Source: Rhodopseudomonas sp. AAP120
GTDB taxonomy: Bacteria > Pseudomonadota > Alphaproteobacteria > Rhizobiales > Xanthobacteraceae
DNA: 45,339 nt
Assembly (NCBI RefSeq): GCF_001295845.1
Contig: NZ_LJIC01000051.1
Coordinates: forward strand, 1 to 45,339
Reading direction: 5' to 3'
Shown: positions 25,239 to 34,454 of the stretch, piece by piece
Layout of the letters: the number at the start of each line of letters is the position of its first letter
Position numbering within the stretch: position 1 is the stretch's first letter
Notes under the pieces: model-generated
What the model saw: only the letters and a program-made list of their open reading frames with translations
Databases searched by the model: none
What the model was told of the DNA's origin: nothing
Position numbers and translations under genes: made by a program

Positions 25239-25754
25239 TCAGCACCACCGGCTCGGCGCGTGCCCGGCGTCCGCCAGCGTAGGCTCGCAGGCGAGCGCGT
25301 GCGACATCCGCCAGAACATATGCGCCAGGCGGGTGAAGGCGATCCGGTCGCGTTTGGCAGCTTCGTCGCTCGGCGGCAGCGTGAAGGTCTCGATGCCGAT
25401 GATATGGTCGAACGCGGGGTGTCGGCCGATCGCCTGCGCGATCACCGAGACGCAGGGCGCATCGTCGGCGGCCTCGGCCGCCGTCCGCGGCGGCAGGCCG
25501 GGATGTTGCAGCGGCGCCGCATAGAACTGGTAGGCGCCGTGGCCGAGCTGTTCCACGACGTGTTCGGCGAGCGGCAGCGTATCGCCGAAGCAGACCAGCC
25601 GTGAATGCTGCAACACCTCGGGTTCGAGCAGATCGAGGTCCTCGGCAGACACGTCGGTCCAGATCGACAGGCCAGGATTGTGTTCGCGCAGCAGCAGCGA
25701 GAGCGCGTGCTGATAGTCCGCGCGGCCGGCAAACAGGATGATGGTCTTGAGCAT
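25239..25754 (-). CDS. Formyltransferase-like protein (putative)
   Basis: A 171-residue cytoplasmic protein, last in a four-gene operon. Its N-terminal strand-helix (KTIILFAGRADYQHALSLLL) and AYQFYAAPLQHPGLPP (about 75-90) resemble the N-terminal fold and the fxPa-xyPG stretch of formyltransferases. The classical Asn-His-Asp catalytic set is not evident (YAAP stands where NxHP would be), so it may be inactive or use another reaction. A GAAGGA ribosome-binding site lies 8 bases upstream of ATG 25754, and 12 bases separate it from the gene before. The assignment is tentative. Confidence 0.6.
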   Translation of the reverse strand: MLKTIILFAGRADYQHALSLLLREHNPGLSIWTDVSAEDLDLLEPEVLQHSRLVCFGDTLPLAEHVVEQLGHGAYQFYAAPLQHPGLPPRTAAEAADDAPCVSVIAQAIGRHPAFDHIIGIETFTLPPSDEAAKRDRIAFTRLAHMFWRMSHALACEPTLADAGHAPSRWC

Positions 25755-25766
25755 CGGGCGGGTCCT

Positions 25767-27110
25767 TCAGATGCGCGGCACGGAGACGATGGCGGGGCGT
25801 CGCTTGGCGAGCGAGGCGAAGACGTCGGGCGGCACCGGCTGGCCGGGCACGATGTCGAGAACGCTGGCGCGGCCGGAGCGCGCGGCTCGGCGCGCGGCGT
25901 CGGCCTCGTCGCGCCAGGCACACAGCGTCAGTTCGAATCGGCCGAAGCCGCCGCATTCCGCCGCGAACGCGCTGGTCGCGGCGTCGATGGTGGCGGCGAC
26001 CGCGCGGGCGTCCGCCGTGCCGACATCGTGCAGGATCACCGCGACACTGTCGGTCGAGAGCGCCTGGGACTGCATCACCACCAGCGCATCGCGTGGCCCG
26101 GTTCGCCCGGCCCGCCTCGCCGCCCGTGCGATCGCCGCAAAGCTCGGGTCCGGACCGAGATCGGCCGTGGTGCTGCAGCAGTCGTGCACGACCGTCGCCT
26201 TGGCCTCCGCGAGATCGCCGACCAGCGCATGATAGGAGCGCGGCAGCCATACCGTGTCGAGCGAGCGCTGCGACGTCGCCAGGCACCATGCCTGATCGAG
26301 CAGCGCGCCCTCCCACACGGTGGGACACAGCTCGGCGAGCTGCCGCCAGACACCCAGCAATGCCTCGGCGGCAGCGGTCCGGCCGAGATAGATCGTCCGG
26401 GCCGACATCTCCCAGCGATTCCATTTGTGAACGGCGAAATCGCAGCCGAGCCCCGCCGGCAGCAGCGGCGCCTCGTGCAGGTCGGCGCCGGCTTCGACGA
26501 ACAACAGCGGCTCGGCGAAGCGATCCCACATCCGCGCGATGAAATCGGCCTTCTCGGCGCATCGCAGGCGATCGTCGAGCGCGCTGTCGATCGGTTCGAT
26601 ATGCGCCCTCAATTGGTAGCGTTCGGCGGCCTGCTGCAGCCGCAGCGCGCCCTGGGCGTCGCCCCTGCGCGGATAGCAGCTCACCACCCGCAGCCGCTCG
26701 ATCGCGGGACGCGGGATGAGCGCTTCGATCGCTCCGACGCCACCCCACCACATCTCGTGGGGACCATCGGCCCCATGCGTGCCGACGGTGCCGTATTCGG
26801 TCAGCTTCGACTTCAGGAAGTCGAACACCGGGTTCTCGCCGAACGGCACGACGACGATGCTGCCGGCCCGCAGGCTGCGATAGAACAGCTCTGCACCGGC
26901 GCTGTTGAGCGGATCGGTGACGATGATCAGCCGGTGTTCAGCGCTGAGTTTGTCGCCGCGTTGGTACAGCCGGGCTTCGCCGAGCCGGGCGGCGAGCCAG
27001 CCGAGGCGGCGACGCTGCGCTTCGTTGAGCCGGAGGCCGGCGGCGCGAAGTAAGCCGTCGAGGTGGGAGGCGCTGGCGTGGTCGAGAGCGTGCAAGGCGG
27101 AGATCCGCAA
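25767..27110 (-). CDS. Glycosyltransferase-like protein (putative GT-A fold domain)
   Basis: A 447-residue protein I cannot assign confidently to a family. Residues about 200-315 resemble GT-A nucleotide-sugar transferases: PLLFVEAGADLHEAPLLP, then FAVHKWNRWEMSARTIYL, a LLGVWRQLAE helix, DQAW (272-275), WLPRSYHAL and VVHDCCS. The usual DxD metal motif reads EAGAD instead. Residues 60-130 form another alpha/beta region. The C-terminal 100 residues look like a separate small domain. The start is the TTG at 27110; no ATG or clear ribosome-binding site is near. It lies 38 bases after the HAD gene and 12 before the formyltransferase-like gene, so co-transcription is likely. Confidence 0.6.
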   Translation of the reverse strand: MRISALHALDHASASHLDGLLRAAGLRLNEAQRRRLGWLAARLGEARLYQRGDKLSAEHRLIIVTDPLNSAGAELFYRSLRAGSIVVVPFGENPVFDFLKSKLTEYGTVGTHGADGPHEMWWGGVGAIEALIPRPAIERLRVVSCYPRRGDAQGALRLQQAAERYQLRAHIEPIDSALDDRLRCAEKADFIARMWDRFAEPLLFVEAGADLHEAPLLPAGLGCDFAVHKWNRWEMSARTIYLGRTAAAEALLGVWRQLAELCPTVWEGALLDQAWCLATSQRSLDTVWLPRSYHALVGDLAEAKATVVHDCCSTTADLGPDPSFAAIARAARRAGRTGPRDALVVMQSQALSTDSVAVILHDVGTADARAVAATIDAATSAFAAECGGFGRFELTLCAWRDEADAARRAARSGRASVLDIVPGQPVPPDVFASLAKRRPAIVSVPRI

Positions 27111-27148
27111 GAGAGATGACTAAGCCTTGAACGGCCGAGCACGCGCGA

Positions 27149-29620
27149 TCAGGCGCGGCCGTGCTCGCGGGCGCCGCGTGCCACGATCGCCGCCGGCTGC
27201 GTCGCCAGCGGCCGGCCCCTGCCGAGCGGCGTGACGGCCAGCGTGTAGACCGCGAATGGCGATCGCATCGGGCCGAGCTGGATCAGCAGACAGGCGTCGT
27301 CCTGCTCGGCCAGATAATGCCGACCGCTGCGGCGCAGCCCGGCATCGATCAGCAGGCCGGCGGGAACGCTTACGACCTCCTGGCTGTGCGCGGCCTCGGC
27401 GATGGTCTTGCCCTGCTGCAACACGACGCCATCGAGCAATCCCTCGCGGGTCAATTTGCCGAGCGGCAATGCGATCGTCGCCAGCCCCATCTGCCGTGAC
27501 ACCGGGACGCGCACCCGCAGATCGCCGAGCCCGGTGAGGAACACCGTGACGGTCTCCAGCGTCGCAGTGCCGTCGGTCCTGAACAGGCCGACCTGCAGCG
27601 AGCCGCAGGGCGTTTCACCGACCACATCTGCCGACAGCCGATTAGCGCCGAACAGCGCGTAGAAGTAGGCCAGCGCCGGCGACAGCGCCGCGAAACTGCC
27701 GGCGATCCACATTGGCGGCGGCGCGGTGGTACAGGCCGCGGAGAGGCCGCGCGCCACGATCTGGTTGCGGATGAAGCCGGCGTCGATCATCGGTGCCAGC
27801 GTGGCGGTGCCGAGATTGACGTCGTGCTGGAAGTCGCCGAACAGCGCGAGCTCCTCGTCGTCGGGCAGCAGCAGCAATCGCCCGATCGTGGCTGCACTCC
27901 AGGCGGCGGACCGCGCAAGGTCGGCGTACGGTGCCAAGCTGTAATCCGCCGCGACGGCGTCGGCCACAGCCATGAAGGCAAGTGCGCCGGCCTGGATCTC
28001 GGCGCATCGCGCGATCTGCGCCGGCGGCCGCGGATTGGGCTCGCGCACGACGCCGCTATCCTGATAGTCGCGGACCGAACCTTCCGGCGAGCAGCAGATC
28101 TGTTCGAGGATCAGCGCGTTGCGCACCAGCATCCGGTTGACGTGCGGCGTCACCGTCCGGTCGCAGATGAAGCCTTCGGCGCTGTCGCCCTCGGCAAGGT
28201 CTTCGAGCGCGTCGTCGAGAGCGAACAAATACAGCCCGTGGAGCCGAAGCCCGTTGGCCTCGAGTCGCAGCGCGCGGCTCAGCGCTTTCTGGACGTTGCC
28301 CGAATAGCCGATATCGATCAGCACGAGATCGGTCAGCGCATCGAAATCCGCGATGGTCTCGCGCAGATAGCAGACCAGCCGGGCCCGGAGCCCGGCCGCC
28401 AGGTCGGCGACATCCCGCGGCTGCATCAGCATCGGCAACGCGTCGGCGAGATCGGCTCCGGTGGCGATGCCGCCGGGGTGGTCGGCGAAAAAGCCGGCGA
28501 TCGGGGCAGGCACAACCTTCAGCATGTCGCCGAATGTCGCGGCATCGATCTTCGGGATCTTGCGAAACAGCTCGCACAGCGGCGCCATCGTATCGGCCGA
28601 GGCGATCAGGCTGACGCGGCGGTTGACCTCGAGATAGCAGGCCGGAGCTTCGCGCGTTCGTTGCCAGACTTGATACGACAGGAAGCCGTCGCGGCCGAGG
28701 AAGGCGACGCCGACGCGGCGGCCGTCCTGGTCGAGCTTGGCCACGCGGTCCGCCACGAAGGCGTCGAACGCTCGCATCACCGGCCCGACCACGGTGACGC
28801 CGAGATGATACGCGGGCGATTGCTCGGCGCTGCGTGCCGCCACCATCCGTCGCAGTGTGCGGGCGCCATGATCGAGCTGCCGCGGATGACCGTCGCACAG
28901 GAGGTCGAACAGCGAGGCCTCGCGCTGCAACCGCGACGCCAGCCGCGCGCCGGCCTGCGGATAGTGCCGTGCCCGGATGCCGAAGCGCCGCGCGCCCTCG
29001 ATGTCGGCTTGCGGATTGTCGCCGACATGCAGCGCGGAAGCGACGTCGACCTGCTGCTCCGCCACATAGGCGGCGAACAGCGCTTCGCTCTTGCTGCTGC
29101 GATGATCGCAGGAGGCGTAGAGGAAATCCCAGGCGAGCTCGGGGCAGCACGCCCGCAGGAGTTGCCCCAGCCGCGCTGCGTCCCAATACGTATCGGAGAT
29201 GAATCCGACGCGGTGGCCGGCGCGTTTGTTGTCGAGATATTGCGCGAGGATTTCCGGATTTGTCCGGCACAAATCGAGTTCGGCACCGAACTCCGCGTCG
29301 ACCAGTTGATCGACGGCGCTATCATCCAGGCCGAATAGTTTGAACGGAAAGCAGGAATAGATTTCGGCGATGTGCACTTCGGCCGAGCCGCGAGTTTGTT
29401 TCGCTTTCGCCCGGGCGCGCGATTCAGCAAGGATGCGATGCTGACAGAAATGATCGGACATGTTTCGATCATCTTCGGAAATGCCGGAAAGCTGATAAGT
29501 CCTTTCAAACACGCCGGTCGGCGTGGTGCAGGCGCGTAGCAGAAATGTATCGAAAACATCGAACGAGCAGGCGCGCCGCGTCTGCGCCCGGCGGAAGCCG
29601 CCGATCGATAGTGCCGTCAT
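27149..29620 (-). CDS. Large HAD-superfamily protein (COG5610-like)
   Basis: An 823-residue protein with an N-terminal HAD phosphatase-like domain (about 15-225). It has motif I SFDVFDT (Asp21, Asp24), motif II FISDTYW (Ser142), Lys177, and motif IV HVGDNPQADIEGAR (Asp201, Asp206), so the catalytic set is complete. A second region (about 280-480) has VAFLGRDGFLSYQVW and VLIDIGYSGNVQKALSRAL, phrases found in COG5610-type proteins of surface-polysaccharide loci. The C-terminal 200 residues are beta-rich and unassigned. The 46-residue gene ends 3 bases upstream, so translation is probably coupled. It may process a sugar-phosphate or glycan; the substrate is not known. Confidence 0.75.
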   Translation of the reverse strand: MTALSIGGFRRAQTRRACSFDVFDTFLLRACTTPTGVFERTYQLSGISEDDRNMSDHFCQHRILAESRARAKAKQTRGSAEVHIAEIYSCFPFKLFGLDDSAVDQLVDAEFGAELDLCRTNPEILAQYLDNKRAGHRVGFISDTYWDAARLGQLLRACCPELAWDFLYASCDHRSSKSEALFAAYVAEQQVDVASALHVGDNPQADIEGARRFGIRARHYPQAGARLASRLQREASLFDLLCDGHPRQLDHGARTLRRMVAARSAEQSPAYHLGVTVVGPVMRAFDAFVADRVAKLDQDGRRVGVAFLGRDGFLSYQVWQRTREAPACYLEVNRRVSLIASADTMAPLCELFRKIPKIDAATFGDMLKVVPAPIAGFFADHPGGIATGADLADALPMLMQPRDVADLAAGLRARLVCYLRETIADFDALTDLVLIDIGYSGNVQKALSRALRLEANGLRLHGLYLFALDDALEDLAEGDSAEGFICDRTVTPHVNRMLVRNALILEQICCSPEGSVRDYQDSGVVREPNPRPPAQIARCAEIQAGALAFMAVADAVAADYSLAPYADLARSAAWSAATIGRLLLLPDDEELALFGDFQHDVNLGTATLAPMIDAGFIRNQIVARGLSAACTTAPPPMWIAGSFAALSPALAYFYALFGANRLSADVVGETPCGSLQVGLFRTDGTATLETVTVFLTGLGDLRVRVPVSRQMGLATIALPLGKLTREGLLDGVVLQQGKTIAEAAHSQEVVSVPAGLLIDAGLRRSGRHYLAEQDDACLLIQLGPMRSPFAVYTLAVTPLGRGRPLATQPAAIVARGAREHGRA

Positions 29621-29623
29621 GAC

Positions 29624-29764
29624 TCATAGCCCGCTTGTTTGTCGCCGCTTCAACGCGTGGTAATCGATAAGCAGGCGCTCGATCGCCCGAAATGTTACTT
29701 CGTGATCGAAATGACGCGGATCGCCGACTGACAGCGCGATGATTTGCGCTAGTGTCGAGTGCAT
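29624..29764 (-). CDS. Small protein (46 aa) leading the HAD operon
   Basis: A short open frame with normal codon use that starts at ATG 29764 and ends at TGA 29624-29626, three bases before the HAD gene start. It begins MHSTLAQIIALSVGDPRHFD and continues with TFRAIERLLIDYHALKRRQ, an amphipathic helical pattern with a basic end. ATG 29785 would add seven residues. I do not recognise a family. Tight spacing with the next gene and well-ordered hydrophobic and charged residues support a real gene. Confidence 0.55.
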   Translation of the reverse strand: MHSTLAQIIALSVGDPRHFDHEVTFRAIERLLIDYHALKRRQTSGL

Positions 29765-29785
29765 GATTCGGAACTCACAGCTCAT

Positions 29786-30133
29786 CGCAGGATCACGACG
29801 ACGAACGTGCGATCACCCCGTCGGCGTTTCTGGTCCTCGCTCCCGAGTCTGGTCCACGGCCGCTCGCTCATTCGCCGCGCGTCCTATCCGCGCGCCGGGA
29901 GACGACATGCGAGCGGCCGGCCGTGCCTCCGCGTGGTGGTGGTCCGTTCTCTGCCGGAGTGACCCGGGGCGCGTCCAACGCCGGCAAAAAATGCCGCATG
30001 GTGGGCAAAACATTCCCACTAACTATTTGAAAAATAATCAAAATACCGCGCCTGATCGGGCACGGACGGACGTTCAACACGACGAGGCCAGACTGGTTCG
30101 GCGCCAGCGGCGTTGCGGGTTGGAGGATGGGGC
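29786..30133. other. Divergent intergenic region before the sigma-factor gene
   Basis: About 350 bases between the HAD operon and the ECF sigma gene. Short open frames on both strands lack ribosome-binding sites and protein-like composition. The stretch 30019-30046 (AACTATTTGAAAAATAATCA) is the most AT-rich patch of this part and probably holds promoters or operators for one or both directions. GGAGG at 30122-30126 is the sigma-gene ribosome-binding site. Confidence 0.4.
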
Positions 30134-30829
30134 ATGAGTTACGCGGTCGAAATCTCGGCGCCTGCCGAAGCCAACGTCGCAGCGCTCGCGCGAGACCACG
30201 ATGCGTCGCCCGAGATGGCGCCGCCCCTCGTACCCGACGCGCCGCGACCTGCTGCGGAAACTGTGTTCGACGAGGACGCGCCGCTGCTCGATCAGCTCGC
30301 GACCGGAGACGAAGGCGCATTCCGCGCGCTGGTCGAACGCCACATCGATCGCGGCTACGCGATCGCGCTGCGTATTCTCGGCAACGCCGCCGATGCCGAG
30401 GACGTGGTGCAGGACACCATGCTGAAGGTCTGGACGCATCGCGGCCGCTGGCAGCACGGCCGCGCCAAGTTCTCGACCTGGCTGTACCGCGTAATCAGCA
30501 ATCGCTGCATCGACCTGCGCCGCAAGCCGCGCACCGAGAACGTCGACGCCGTCCCCGAGGTCGCCGACTCGCAGCTCGACGCCAGCCGCGTGATCGAGCG
30601 CAACGAACTCAGCCGGATGCTGGAAACAGCGATGCAGAGGCTGCCGGATCAGCAGCGCCTCGCGCTGATCCTGTCGTATCACGAGAACATGAGTAACGGC
30701 GAGATCGCCGACGTCATGGAAAGCACCGTCTACGCGGTGGAATCCTTGTTGAAGCGGGGGCGGCAACAGCTTCGCGCCTTGCTGCGCGGACACGAGCGTG
30801 ACCTGCGCGGCGCGTTTACCGACTGTTGA
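30134..30829 (+). CDS. ECF-type RNA polymerase sigma factor
   Basis: A 231-residue group 4 sigma factor with regions 2 and 4 only. Region 2 shows YAIALRILGNAADAEDVVQD and KFSTWLYRVISNRCIDLRRK (about 75-135). Region 4 shows LPDQQRLALILSYHENMSNG and EIADVMESTVYAVESLLKRG (about 175-215). A 50-residue Ala/Pro-rich N-terminal extension precedes region 2. GGAGG 7 bases before ATG 30134 fixes the start. Flagellin begins 137 bases downstream, and a small WP-motif protein of a type that often accompanies ECF sigma genes is found only after the flagellar genes. The regulon is unknown; its own locus is a natural first guess. Confidence 0.9.
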   Translation: MSYAVEISAPAEANVAALARDHDASPEMAPPLVPDAPRPAAETVFDEDAPLLDQLATGDEGAFRALVERHIDRGYAIALRILGNAADAEDVVQDTMLKVWTHRGRWQHGRAKFSTWLYRVISNRCIDLRRKPRTENVDAVPEVADSQLDASRVIERNELSRMLETAMQRLPDQQRLALILSYHENMSNGEIADVMESTVYAVESLLKRGRQQLRALLRGHERDLRGAFTDC

Positions 30830-30966
30830 CCATAATTCGGCTGCCGCACGCATTCGCCGCCTGATCGAAGCGGCTCCTTCCGTTCGAACATCAGACGGGG
30901 ACGATCCGCGTCCGGTGTCATCGCCGCCACGCGGCTGGTCACGCCGATCAGCACAGGAGCCTTGCT

Positions 30967-31791
30967 ATGCCCGCGATCTCGACCAACACGGCGGCCAATT
31001 CGGCGGTCCGCTATCTCAATATCAACTCCGCGCAGGAAACCAGCTCGCTGTCCAAACTGGCGAGCGGCTCGCGCATCACCTCCGCGTCGGACGACGCGGC
31101 CGGCCTTGCGATTTCGACCCGGATCTCCTCGGACGTCACCACGCTGCAGCAGGCCGCCACCAATGCGTCGCAGGCCGTCGCGATCCTGCAGACCGCGGAC
31201 GGCGGCGCCTCCAACATCAGCGACATCCTGGCCCGCATGAAGTCGCTGGCGTCGGAATCGGCGTCCGGCACCACCACGGATTCGAGCCGCGCCTACATCA
31301 ATTCGGAATTCTCGCAGCTCTCCAGCCAGATCGACTCGATCGCCAGCGGCACCCGCTATTCCAGCCAGAGCCTGCTCGACGGCACCAGCGTGTTCGCCTC
31401 GGGCGTCTCGGTGCTGGTCGGCACGCAAGGCAGCGACACCATCACGATCACGCTGTCCAATCTCAAGTCGTCGACGCTCGGCGTCTCGACGCTCGACGTC
31501 AGTACGCAGTCCGGCGCCACCACGGCGTTGAGTTCGCTCGACACCGCAATCAACACGGTCTCGGCGGCGCGCGCCAGCATCGGCGCGCAGGAGTCGCGGT
31601 TCAATTTCAGCGCCGACTCGATCTCGACCCAGACGCAGAATCTGCAGTCGGCGAACTCGGCCATCAGGGACGTCGATATCGCCTCCGAGCAGGCCAAGCT
31701 GTCGTCCGCCGAGGTCAAGACCCAGGCGGCAGTTTCGGCCGAAGCTGCGGCGAACCAGATGCCGCAGTACCTGCTGAAGCTGCTCAGCTGA
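30967..31791 (+). CDS. fliC: Flagellin (short form)
   Basis: A 274-residue flagellin. The conserved N-terminal helix pair is recognisable (LASGSRITSASDDAAGLAIS, then TTLQQAATNASQAVAILQTA), as is the C-terminal helix pair (RASIGAQESRFNFSADSIS, ending in MPQYLLKLLS). The variable middle is only about 60-70 residues, so the surface-exposed domains are small. The composition is rich in Ser and Thr and holds no Cys or Trp. AGGAG (30955-30959) lies 7 bases before the ATG. It is the first gene of a flagellin-FliD-FliS cassette. Whether it is the main or an alternative filament protein cannot be told from this window. Confidence 0.95.
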   Translation: MPAISTNTAANSAVRYLNINSAQETSSLSKLASGSRITSASDDAAGLAISTRISSDVTTLQQAATNASQAVAILQTADGGASNISDILARMKSLASESASGTTTDSSRAYINSEFSQLSSQIDSIASGTRYSSQSLLDGTSVFASGVSVLVGTQGSDTITITLSNLKSSTLGVSTLDVSTQSGATTALSSLDTAINTVSAARASIGAQESRFNFSADSISTQTQNLQSANSAIRDVDIASEQAKLSSAEVKTQAAVSAEAAANQMPQYLLKLLS

Positions 31792-31852: not shown

Positions 31853-33562
31853 ATGACATCGGTCAGCAGCACGACCTCCGGCACCGCCGGAACCACGACG
31901 AGCAGTACGTCGTCGTCCGGCACATCGGTGACGACCTCCGGAACCTCGACCACGACCAGCGTCGACTGGGATTCGCTGATCGCCTCGGCGGTCAACGCCA
32001 AGCTCGCCGCGGCGACGTCGATCTCGACCAAAATCACCGCCAACGAAGCCAAGATCGCCGCCTATCAGACGCTGCAGACCAACCTCAGCACGTTGTCCTC
32101 GGGGCTGTCGTCGCTGGCGACCGCTGTGGTCAATTCGCTCGCCACCAACGTGTTCGCCACCCGGGCCGCGACGCTGAGTTCGACCGGCGACGTCAGCGCG
32201 TCGTCGGCGCTCTCGATGTCGGTGAAGAACGGCGCCGCGACCGGCGACCACACCCTGACGATCAGCCAGATCGCGACCGCCCATAAGGTGATGAGCGCGA
32301 CGCAATCGAGCGCCACCGACGCGCTCGGCAGCAGCGGCACGATTTCGCTCGGTCTCGCCGGCGGCAGCAGCACGGCGATTTCGATCACCAGCACGATGTC
32401 GCTGCAGGATGTCGTCGACGCCGTCAACGCCCAGAGCGCGACCACCAATGTCGAAGCCTCGATCGTGCAGGTGTCGAGCGGCTCGTACCGGATGGTGCTG
32501 ACGGCGACGCAGGATGCCGCCGACATTCAATACTCCAGCACGTCCGGCGACGATGTTCTCAACACGCTCGGCTTCACCGACGGCTCGGGCAGTTTCGCCA
32601 ACGTGCTGCAGACGGCGCAGCCCGCCGAATTCACGCTCGACGGCATCGCGATGACGCGCGACACCAACGACATCTCCGACGTGCTGACCGGCGTGACGTT
32701 CAACCTGCTGCAGGCGACGCCGAGCGGCTCCAGCATCAATATCAGCATCGGCACCGACACCAGCCAGATCAGCTCGGCGCTGCAGACCTTCGTCACCAAC
32801 TACAACGCCTATCGGGACGCTGTGATCGCCCAGCAGGCGACCAATTCGGACGGCACCGCCTCCGACGGCGCGGTGCTGTTCGGCGACAGCACGATGCGGG
32901 ACATCACCAGCCGGCTCGAAGCGGCGCTGAACACCACCGTCGGCGGCCTGTCGATGAGCGCGATCGGCCTGTCCTTCAACGAAAAGAACGAACTCGAGCT
33001 CGACACCAGCACGCTGTCGAGCATCCTGTCGACCAATCTCAGCGGTGTCACCAAGCTGTTGTCGGCGCAGACCACGACGTCGTCGAGTCAGCTTGCCGTG
33101 GTCAACACCGGCACCGCGCCGCAATCCTTCACGCTGGATCTGGCGGTCGATTCCAGCGGCAATCTCACCAGCGCCTCGGTCAATGGCGACTCGTCGCTGT
33201 TCACGGTGAGCGGCACCACCATCATCGGGGCGTCGGGCACCGCCTATGCGGGCATGGCCTTCACCTACAGCGGCACGACGGCGCAGTCGATCAGCGTGAC
33301 GTCGACCACCGGCATCGCGTCGCAGATCTACCAGATCGCGAACAGCACCTCGTCGACCAGCGGTTCGCTGCAGACGATGATCAGCGGGCTGCAGAGCCGC
33401 GACTCCGATCTGCAGCAGAAGGTCGACGACATCACGGCGGCGGCCGCCACCTACAAGAGCCAGTTGCAGACGCAATACGCCAACTATCAGGCGGCGATCG
33501 CCAGCGCCGACAACACGCTGACCTATCTGAAAGCCCTCCTCAACGCCAGTTCGAGTAATTGA
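31853..33562 (+). CDS. fliD: Flagellar hook-associated protein 2 (filament cap, FliD)
   Basis: A 569-residue secreted cap protein on which flagellin monomers assemble at the filament tip. After a Ser/Thr/Gly-only leader (residues 4-36) comes the FliD N-terminal domain VDWDSLIASAVNAKLAAATS with a coiled-coil stretch. The C-terminal coiled coil contains SRDSDLQQKVDDITAAAATY and ends with DNTLTYLKALLNASSS. The middle domains are Thr/Ser-rich, and the protein holds no cysteine. The leader is longer and lower in complexity than in model FliD proteins. The stop codon overlaps the fliS start by one base. Confidence 0.93.
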   Translation: MTSVSSTTSGTAGTTTSSTSSSGTSVTTSGTSTTTSVDWDSLIASAVNAKLAAATSISTKITANEAKIAAYQTLQTNLSTLSSGLSSLATAVVNSLATNVFATRAATLSSTGDVSASSALSMSVKNGAATGDHTLTISQIATAHKVMSATQSSATDALGSSGTISLGLAGGSSTAISITSTMSLQDVVDAVNAQSATTNVEASIVQVSSGSYRMVLTATQDAADIQYSSTSGDDVLNTLGFTDGSGSFANVLQTAQPAEFTLDGIAMTRDTNDISDVLTGVTFNLLQATPSGSSINISIGTDTSQISSALQTFVTNYNAYRDAVIAQQATNSDGTASDGAVLFGDSTMRDITSRLEAALNTTVGGLSMSAIGLSFNEKNELELDTSTLSSILSTNLSGVTKLLSAQTTTSSSQLAVVNTGTAPQSFTLDLAVDSSGNLTSASVNGDSSLFTVSGTTIIGASGTAYAGMAFTYSGTTAQSISVTSTTGIASQIYQIANSTSSTSGSLQTMISGLQSRDSDLQQKVDDITAAAATYKSQLQTQYANYQAAIASADNTLTYLKALLNASSSN

Positions 33563-33984
33563 TGACCCAGCATTCGATGGCCCAGCGGGCCAACCAGGCC
33601 TACCGCGGCGCCGCCGTGGCCGTGCCGCCGTTGAAGGCGGTGGTGATGCTCCACGCCGGCGCCATCACGCAGCTCCGCCGCGCGATCGAGGCGCAGGAGG
33701 CGCGGCGGTTCGAAGAGGGGCACGAATGCGTGGTGCGGGCGACCGCGATCCTGCGCGGGCTGAGCCACTATCTCGATTCCGGCCGGGGCGGCGCGCTGGC
33801 CGAGCGGCTGTTCAACACCTACAACGCGCTGGTGCTGGCGGCGTTGCGCGCCTCGGGCCGGCCTCACGCGGGCGCCAATCTGCAGCGCATCATCGACGGC
33901 ATCGCCGAACTGCGCGAGGCGTGGGAATACGTCGAGACCACGGCCCGGACGGCTGCGCCGACCGCTTCCCGCCGCGCCGAGTAA
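33562..33984 (+). CDS. fliS: Flagellar export chaperone FliS
   Basis: A 140-residue helical chaperone that binds the C-terminus of flagellin and prevents early polymerisation in the cytoplasm. The N-terminal ANQAYRGAAVAVPPLKAVVM corresponds to the FliS NxY region, followed by LHAGAITQLRRAIEAQEARR and a C-terminal helix with EAWEYVETTA. The ATG overlaps the fliD stop (TGATG), so translation is coupled. The GRGG loop sits where FliS contacts flagellin. Confidence 0.88.
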   Translation: MTQHSMAQRANQAYRGAAVAVPPLKAVVMLHAGAITQLRRAIEAQEARRFEEGHECVVRATAILRGLSHYLDSGRGGALAERLFNTYNALVLAALRASGRPHAGANLQRIIDGIAELREAWEYVETTARTAAPTASRRAE

Positions 33985-34160: not shown

Positions 34161-34454
34161 ATGGACATTGCGGAGTTCGAGGATCTGATTGACCGGCTGG
34201 GGGATGATCCGTCCCGATGGCCCGATGATCAGCGTCGCGAAGCCGAGCGTCTGGTCGCGACCTCCGCGGAGGCGCAGCGGCTGCTCGCCGACGCCAAGGC
34301 GGTCCGCGAAGCCCTGGCTGCGCCGCCGGTCCGGGCTCCGGCCGGCCTTGCCGACCGCATCGTCACAGCCGCCAGGCAAGCTCAGGTGGAACCGCAGGGA
34401 TCTCCCGAGGGCGAGGCCGATCAGCCTGCCGCCGCGAAAGTCTTCGCCCGCTGA
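34161..34454 (+). CDS. Small WP-motif protein of the type found with ECF sigma factors
   Basis: A 97-residue acidic protein that begins MDIAEFEDLIDRLGDDPSRW and continues PDDQRREAERLVATS. The D...RLGDDPSRWP pattern followed by a helical Ala/Arg/Glu region recalls small proteins encoded beside ECF sigma factors in alphaproteobacteria, some of them anti-sigma-like. No membrane segment is seen. An inverted repeat, TGCCGAT (34060-34066) and ATCGGCA (34070-34076), lies in its 5' region and may be an operator. The longer start at GTG 34059 is possible but adds unconserved residues. The rest of 33985-34160 shows nothing clear. Confidence 0.65.
   Translation: MDIAEFEDLIDRLGDDPSRWPDDQRREAERLVATSAEAQRLLADAKAVREALAAPPVRAPAGLADRIVTAARQAQVEPQGSPEGEADQPAAAKVFAR

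Follow-up and report, generated by a model that had tools for sequence, protein, structure and literature searches.

What does an operon of sugar-transferase-like genes do beside the genes of a flagellar filament? The question arises on contig NZ_LJIC01000051.1 of Rhodopseudomonas sp. AAP120 (positions 1 to 45,339 of the forward strand; this whole stretch of 45,339 nucleotides is the window). Minus-strand open reading frames (ORFs) of 823, 447 (TTG start) and 171 amino acids (aa), here HAD823, GT447 and FT171, lie divergent from genes for an extracytoplasmic function (ECF) sigma factor, a flagellin, FliD and FliS. We regard it as evenly balanced whether, as a module under control of the sigma factor, they serve to O-glycosylate a minor flagellin of the FliC2 type in the cytoplasm. 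More tentatively, and with some doubt, we propose that this flagellin is ribofuranosylated with phosphoribosyl pyrophosphate (PRPP) as donor, by a GT-A O-glycosyltransferase of a new family and a fused phosphoribosyltransferase-phosphatase, with one ECF sigma factor serving both the filament and its decoration.

Gene organization and linkage with the filament genes

HAD823 (27149..29620), GT447 (25767..27110) and FT171 (25239..25754) are encoded on the minus strand. On the plus strand lie the sigma gene (30134..30829), the gene for the proposed acceptor, a 274-aa flagellin (30967..31791), fliD (31853..33562) and fliS (33559..33984). The divergent arrangement described in the first-pass annotation is borne out: the sigma factor scores over the NF009190 cut-off, and Pfam recognizes the flagellin (Flagellin_N and Flagellin_C), FliD and FliS. 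The available parts of a report on the Azospirillum brasilense RpoE6-FliC2 cluster (PMC12826043) likewise give an ECF sigma factor, then a 274-aa flagellin, fliD and fliS, and describe the cluster as syntenic in R. palustris BisA53 and Bradyrhizobium; by its place our sigma factor is RpoE6-like. Those parts do not mention the divergent HAD823-GT447-FT171 operon.

Scanning named genomes with an alignment of GT447 yielded 70 confirmed, distinct loci, labelled Bradyrhizobium (60), Rhodopseudomonas (5), Tardiphaga (2) and other (3). In 67 of them GT447 adjoins the divergent sigma, flagellin, FliD and FliS genes, and the remaining three (L040, L048 and L094) are contig ends; the linkage to flagellin, on which the first-pass annotation had staked its functional suggestion, therefore survives. 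FT171 has a match in 64/70 loci and HAD823 in 62/70, the latter with an ORF of at least 700 aa in 57 and at contig ends in 3. GT447 stands alone in five loci (three Rhodopseudomonas, two Tardiphaga), HAD823 is missing from three Bradyrhizobium loci that do have GT447 and FT171, and G012 has HAD823 and GT447 without FT171. Because HAD823 and FT171 vary in this way, GT447 is the constant gene of the module. Two HAD823 copies are decaying, one to a remnant (L103, 9386-9883) and one through a frame change (L073, 7398-9822), which suggests repeated loss of HAD823 while GT447 stays. Among 16 genomes of the genus, flagellin and GT447 are present in the same eight, and HAD823 in five. Among 391 genomes of the family, GT447 occurs in 64, FliD of this type in 68 and both in 61, leaving three with GT447 only. 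Among 385 genomes of the class, GT447 has two matches (the window's own and one weak) and the flagellin has 11 at 1e-50, the window's own included. The one class-level match outside the family, in G600 (5.4e-11), we rejected; its neighbours are pyruvyl-transferase-like proteins, and the 14 kb read there showed no flagellar match.

The first-pass annotation had counted four operon genes with gaps of 3, 38 and 12 bases. The coordinates and three of the genes stand, whereas the fourth, a 46-aa ORF (29624..29764, minus; 53 aa when the start is taken at 29785), we judge to be no gene. It has no blastp or tblastn match in the 70 loci, 67 of which reach its place. G008 gives a 48% tblastn match, yet an in-frame TAA interrupts it, the homologous end lacks a stop, and the differences between the two fall 18/14/16 by codon position, i.e. 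without codon-position bias. The promoter motif of HAD823 also falls within this ORF.

A promoter motif shared by the operon, the sigma gene and the flagellin gene

An ECF-type promoter motif chosen after inspection of the flagellin upstream alignment, CGCCTGA-N12-18-CGTT, has three sites in the window against 0.30 expected, and none of 100 shuffles had three. The looser form CGCCTG-N16-17-CGTTNRA has four: before GT447 (27127..27155, minus, overlapping the 3' end of HAD823), HAD823 (29649..29677, minus; looser form), the sigma gene (30049..30077, plus) and the flagellin gene (30858..30887, plus). In the named loci, CGCCTG-N16-17-CGTT, sought between 250 bases before each ORF and 150 bases inside it, was found for flagellin in 67/67, sigma in 59/67, HAD823 in 52/57 (long ORFs) and GT447 in 47/70; it was found for FliD in 0/67 and FT171 in 0/64, and the backward control gave 0 throughout. 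G004 and G011 have the same four sites and one more before FlgD (identified by Pfam), G340 and G325 have three cluster sites each, and G003 and G012 have none of the CGCCTG-N16-17-CGTTNRA form and some of a still looser one. The layout resembles that of the RpoE6-dependent fliC2 promoter of A. brasilense, given in the available parts of PMC12826043 as CGCCAG, 16 bases, CGTGAG. The operon, sigma gene and flagellin gene thus apparently constitute one regulon; the motifs are observed, and transcription from them we infer. Outside the cluster, a motif-like site in the window's genome (G000:C140:14318-14346) has the same 29 bases in G003, G004, G011 and G012, making five genomes of the genus.

HAD823 as a probable ribofuranosyltransferase with its own phosphatase

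HAD823 carries a HAD phosphatase domain (residues 15-218; 28967..29578, minus) N-terminal to a PRPP-transferase-like (CriT/gPRT) domain (residues about 250-614; 27779..28873, minus). The complete HAD motif set reported by the first-pass annotation is confirmed, with D21, D24, T25, S142, K177, G200, D201 and D206 invariant in 29 aligned HAD823 proteins. Its COG5610-type label can be sharpened: family and fold suggest a PRPP-dependent ribofuranosyltransferase plus phosphatase. A HAD823 profile run against a PDB set matches Bcs3 (5.6e-16) and 7shg, most of the signal coming from the HAD part. Foldseek alignments of the predicted model (predicted local distance difference test, pLDDT, 72.9) with 7shg and Bcs3 extend over 781 and 650 columns and span both domains (VIA model ranges 12-597 and 15-614), placing a PRPP-transferase fold after the HAD domain. 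The same order of HAD then PRPP-transferase, as in HAD823 residues 12-614, is seen in 7shg of T. composti, in CriT-CrpP of Bcs3 from Haemophilus influenzae type b and in gPRT-PRP of Klebsiella O4/O7. D311, R334 and D436, also invariant in the 29 proteins, are candidate PRPP-site positions, matched by spacing only: together with D21 they are spaced much like the nucleophile D386 and the PRPP-site positions D680, R708 and E818 described for Bcs3. The HAD823 model differs from all three enzymes in having a further beta-rich C-terminal region (residues 668-798; window about 27227-27619), beyond the 7shg-aligned part; Bcs3 is described as ending in a polymer-binding SH3b domain. The VIA fold lists mainly cover HAD823 residues 12-227 and GT447 residues 3-315.

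Alternatively, HAD823 and GT447 might glycosylate the flagellin with HAD823 supplying a sugar other than ribofuranose. The HAD domain would then act on a different phosphosugar, and the second domain would be a divergent relative. Run by itself against the PDB set, the transferase-region profile retrieves no ribofuranosyltransferase, which together with the concentration of sequence signal in the HAD part speaks for this alternative and against ribofuranosylation. We nevertheless consider it improbable, as the fold alignments cover both domains and the spacing of the nucleophile and three candidate PRPP-site positions is close to that in Bcs3. Two further weaknesses of the ribofuranosyltransferase assignment are that the second stretch of the full profile matches 7shg weakly (independent E-value 0.085) and that the fold alignments have large root-mean-square deviations (18.4 and 8.6 Å).

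GT447 and FT171

GT447 returned nothing useful from Pfam, NCBIfam (over cut-off), PHROGs or PDB sequences; a distant relative in G116 has a weak Nucleotid_trans match, below cut-off. Its predicted model (pLDDT 82.5) matches GT-A folds over residues about 137-315, in keeping with the GT-A-like region noted in the first-pass annotation, which had proposed fold prediction for all four proteins; for HAD823 this gave the HAD and PRPP-transferase folds described above. The matches include a PBCV-1 capsid-glycosylating enzyme (2p73), an alpha-1,3-galactosyltransferase (2jcj) and BoGT6a (4ayl), from which GT447 differs in having just 7 to 13% identity, a degenerate DxD and no family model match. DxD is the metal-binding motif of GT-A enzymes and is absent in some metal-independent members. 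At its place GT447 of the window has E-A-G, a point against the proposed glycosylation; relatives have DPD (G012 and L103), DAD or EAD.

FT171 has no Pfam match, and so no Formyl_trans_N (PF00551). Three of five scanned relatives (L087, L072 and L093) score over the Formyl_trans_N cut-off, and it is these relatives that establish the family, so the earlier description as formyltransferase-like holds through them. N-x-H, which we take to be the catalytic motif of these formyltransferases, is QFY in FT171 and NFH in 7/17 aligned FT proteins; members of the window type have lost the N and the H, and intact forms exceed FT171 in length by about 70 aa. Since FT171 has lost catalytic residues, formylation is unlikely in the window lineage. 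The loss goes together with loss of the third-place D in GT447. NFH is present in 20 of the 64 loci that have FT; in 19 of these the third residue of the GT447 motif is D, and one is unclassified. In the 44 loci without NFH that residue is G in 40, D in three and A in one. As the loci are related, this joint loss may represent one or a few events.

This correlation, like the shortening of FT171, would suit GT447 and FT171 being retained pseudoenzymes (structural or regulatory partners) in the window lineage, with HAD823 as the one catalytic protein. We think this very improbable. Differences from G008 concentrate at third codon positions in both proteins (45/24/69 for FT171 and 110/76/211 for GT447), indicating that both are under selection and kept; metal-independent GT-A enzymes exist (4ayl); and related loci offer few independent events.

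Flagellin as the proposed acceptor

We compared 73 flagellins of GT447-bearing genomes (64 distinct) with 25 distinct flagellins of GT447-less genomes (10 of the class and three of the family). Ser/Thr is commoner by at least 0.6 at 19 positions and rarer at one in the flagellins of GT447-bearing genomes. The corresponding counts are 8/5 for Ala/Gly, 6/4 for Asp/Glu, 8/6 for Asn/Gln, 2/2 for Lys/Arg, 4/4 for Val/Ile/Leu and 7/2 for Ala alone. Ser107 is present in 73/73 against Glu or Gln in 25/25 of the others, Ser132 in 72/73 against Asn or Ala in 25/25, and overall Ser/Thr content is 27.7-32.8% against 16.3-27.5%. The three GT447-less family flagellins group with the other GT447-less set.

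By Pfam the operon has no transporter, flippase or polymerase gene, which suits an acceptor still in the cytoplasm. In Maf-dependent glycosylation, too, flagellin would be modified before export, going by the title of PMC4065374, as we propose for this operon. Neither Maf nor another Pfam glycosyltransferase family was found in the three operon proteins, to which, rather than to the rest of the genome, the Maf search was limited.

The acceptors described for 7shg, Bcs3 and gPRT-PRP are polysaccharides, capsule and O-antigen among them, whereas the HAD823 gene adjoins flagellin. The operon could make or decorate a ribofuranose-containing surface or lipid-linked glycan, used for instance in attachment, that shares only its regulation with the filament. 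G278 (L148) would fit this, as it keeps HAD823-GT447-FT, with the motif before HAD823, in a genome that has two large flagellins only and no such FliD. We consider a surface glycan unlikely, given the missing transporter, flippase and polymerase genes, and given the linkage in 67/70 loci to a single flagellin type with its Ser/Thr pattern.

G278 nonetheless weighs against flagellin glycosylation, and so do several other observations. In G364, GT447 neighbours FlgK and FlgL, and this flagellin is not there. Some orthologous filament clusters have no GT447: the gene is absent from 7 of the 68 family genomes in which this FliD occurs, and from all 10 class genomes, apart from the window's own, that encode this flagellin. 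L103 holds no more than a HAD823 remnant. The Ser/Thr pattern is largely one clade compared with others, so that lineage is a confounder. In A. brasilense, FliC2 appears glycosylated by periodic acid-Schiff (PAS) staining (PMC12826043), and GT447 is not demonstrated in that species. Genome-wide enrichment of the motif is modest or absent, with sites against backward control of 13/4 (own genome), 9/2, 10/6, 7/5, 9/5, 12/12 and 10/7; with controls this weak, the promoter argument rests on the places of the motif within the cluster.

Taking flagellin as the acceptor, the ECF sigma factor would drive transcription, from promoters that match one another, of its own gene and the flagellin gene and, in the opposite direction, of HAD823-GT447-FT171. 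GT447 would put a first sugar on flagellin Ser/Thr before export. From family and fold, the phosphoribosyltransferase domain of HAD823 would add ribofuranose-5-phosphate from PRPP to that sugar and the HAD domain would strip the 5-phosphate. Intact FT proteins of other lineages would formylate an amino sugar; in the window lineage FT171 would be retained as a protein that has lost this activity and may partner GT447. The identity of the sugar, the step order and the choice of flagellin over another glycan are all inferences. Of the original suggestion that the operon builds or attaches an unusual sugar on the filament or surface, the linkage, shared motif and Ser/Thr-rich flagellins favour the core; the 46-aa gene is not supported, and formylation is unlikely in this lineage.

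In the open subset of PMC we found no flagellin carrying ribose and no paper on this operon, and blr3695 appears there in PMC12826043 only. If the proposal is true, PRPP-dependent ribofuranosylation, described for capsule and O-antigen in the available parts of the sources, would extend to a filament protein, and an undescribed GT-A family beside one flagellin type throughout many Bradyrhizobium would gain a function. The bacteria concerned comprise plant symbionts together with soil or photosynthetic relatives, and in them flagellin meets plant immunity.

Variants and neighbours of the cluster

The idea that a glycosylation gene always lies divergent from this sigma gene was rejected, as G091, G024 and G082 differ. 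In G091 and G024 (L143 and L151; one genus) a pyruvate:ferredoxin oxidoreductase gene is divergent from the same sigma gene, and in G082 DIT1_PvcA-like and EamA proteins occupy that place. G024, with a FliC2 cluster lacking GT447, also has a solitary HAD823 relative (L017, 7625-10117; 44% identity) with no adjoining GT447 and no upstream motif. A contig labelled Frankia sp. RB7 (L058) carries a Bradyrhizobium-like operon and flagellin cluster; its label looks wrong.

In L145, L146 and L147 the cluster is a hook-and-filament kit of sigma, FliC, FliD, FliS, FlgD, FlgE, FlgK and FlgL, and basal-body genes were not found in the stretches read. In the window's genome the FlgK of this kit is on a separate contig (G000:C224:18941-20704). 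After FliS, the window encodes a small conserved protein (34161-34454) without a Pfam match, which matches relatives in L143, L146 and L147 at 39-54% over 80-123 aa. The longer of its relatives apparently have a membrane helix at their end, and the protein is possibly an anti-sigma factor like Asf6 of Azospirillum.
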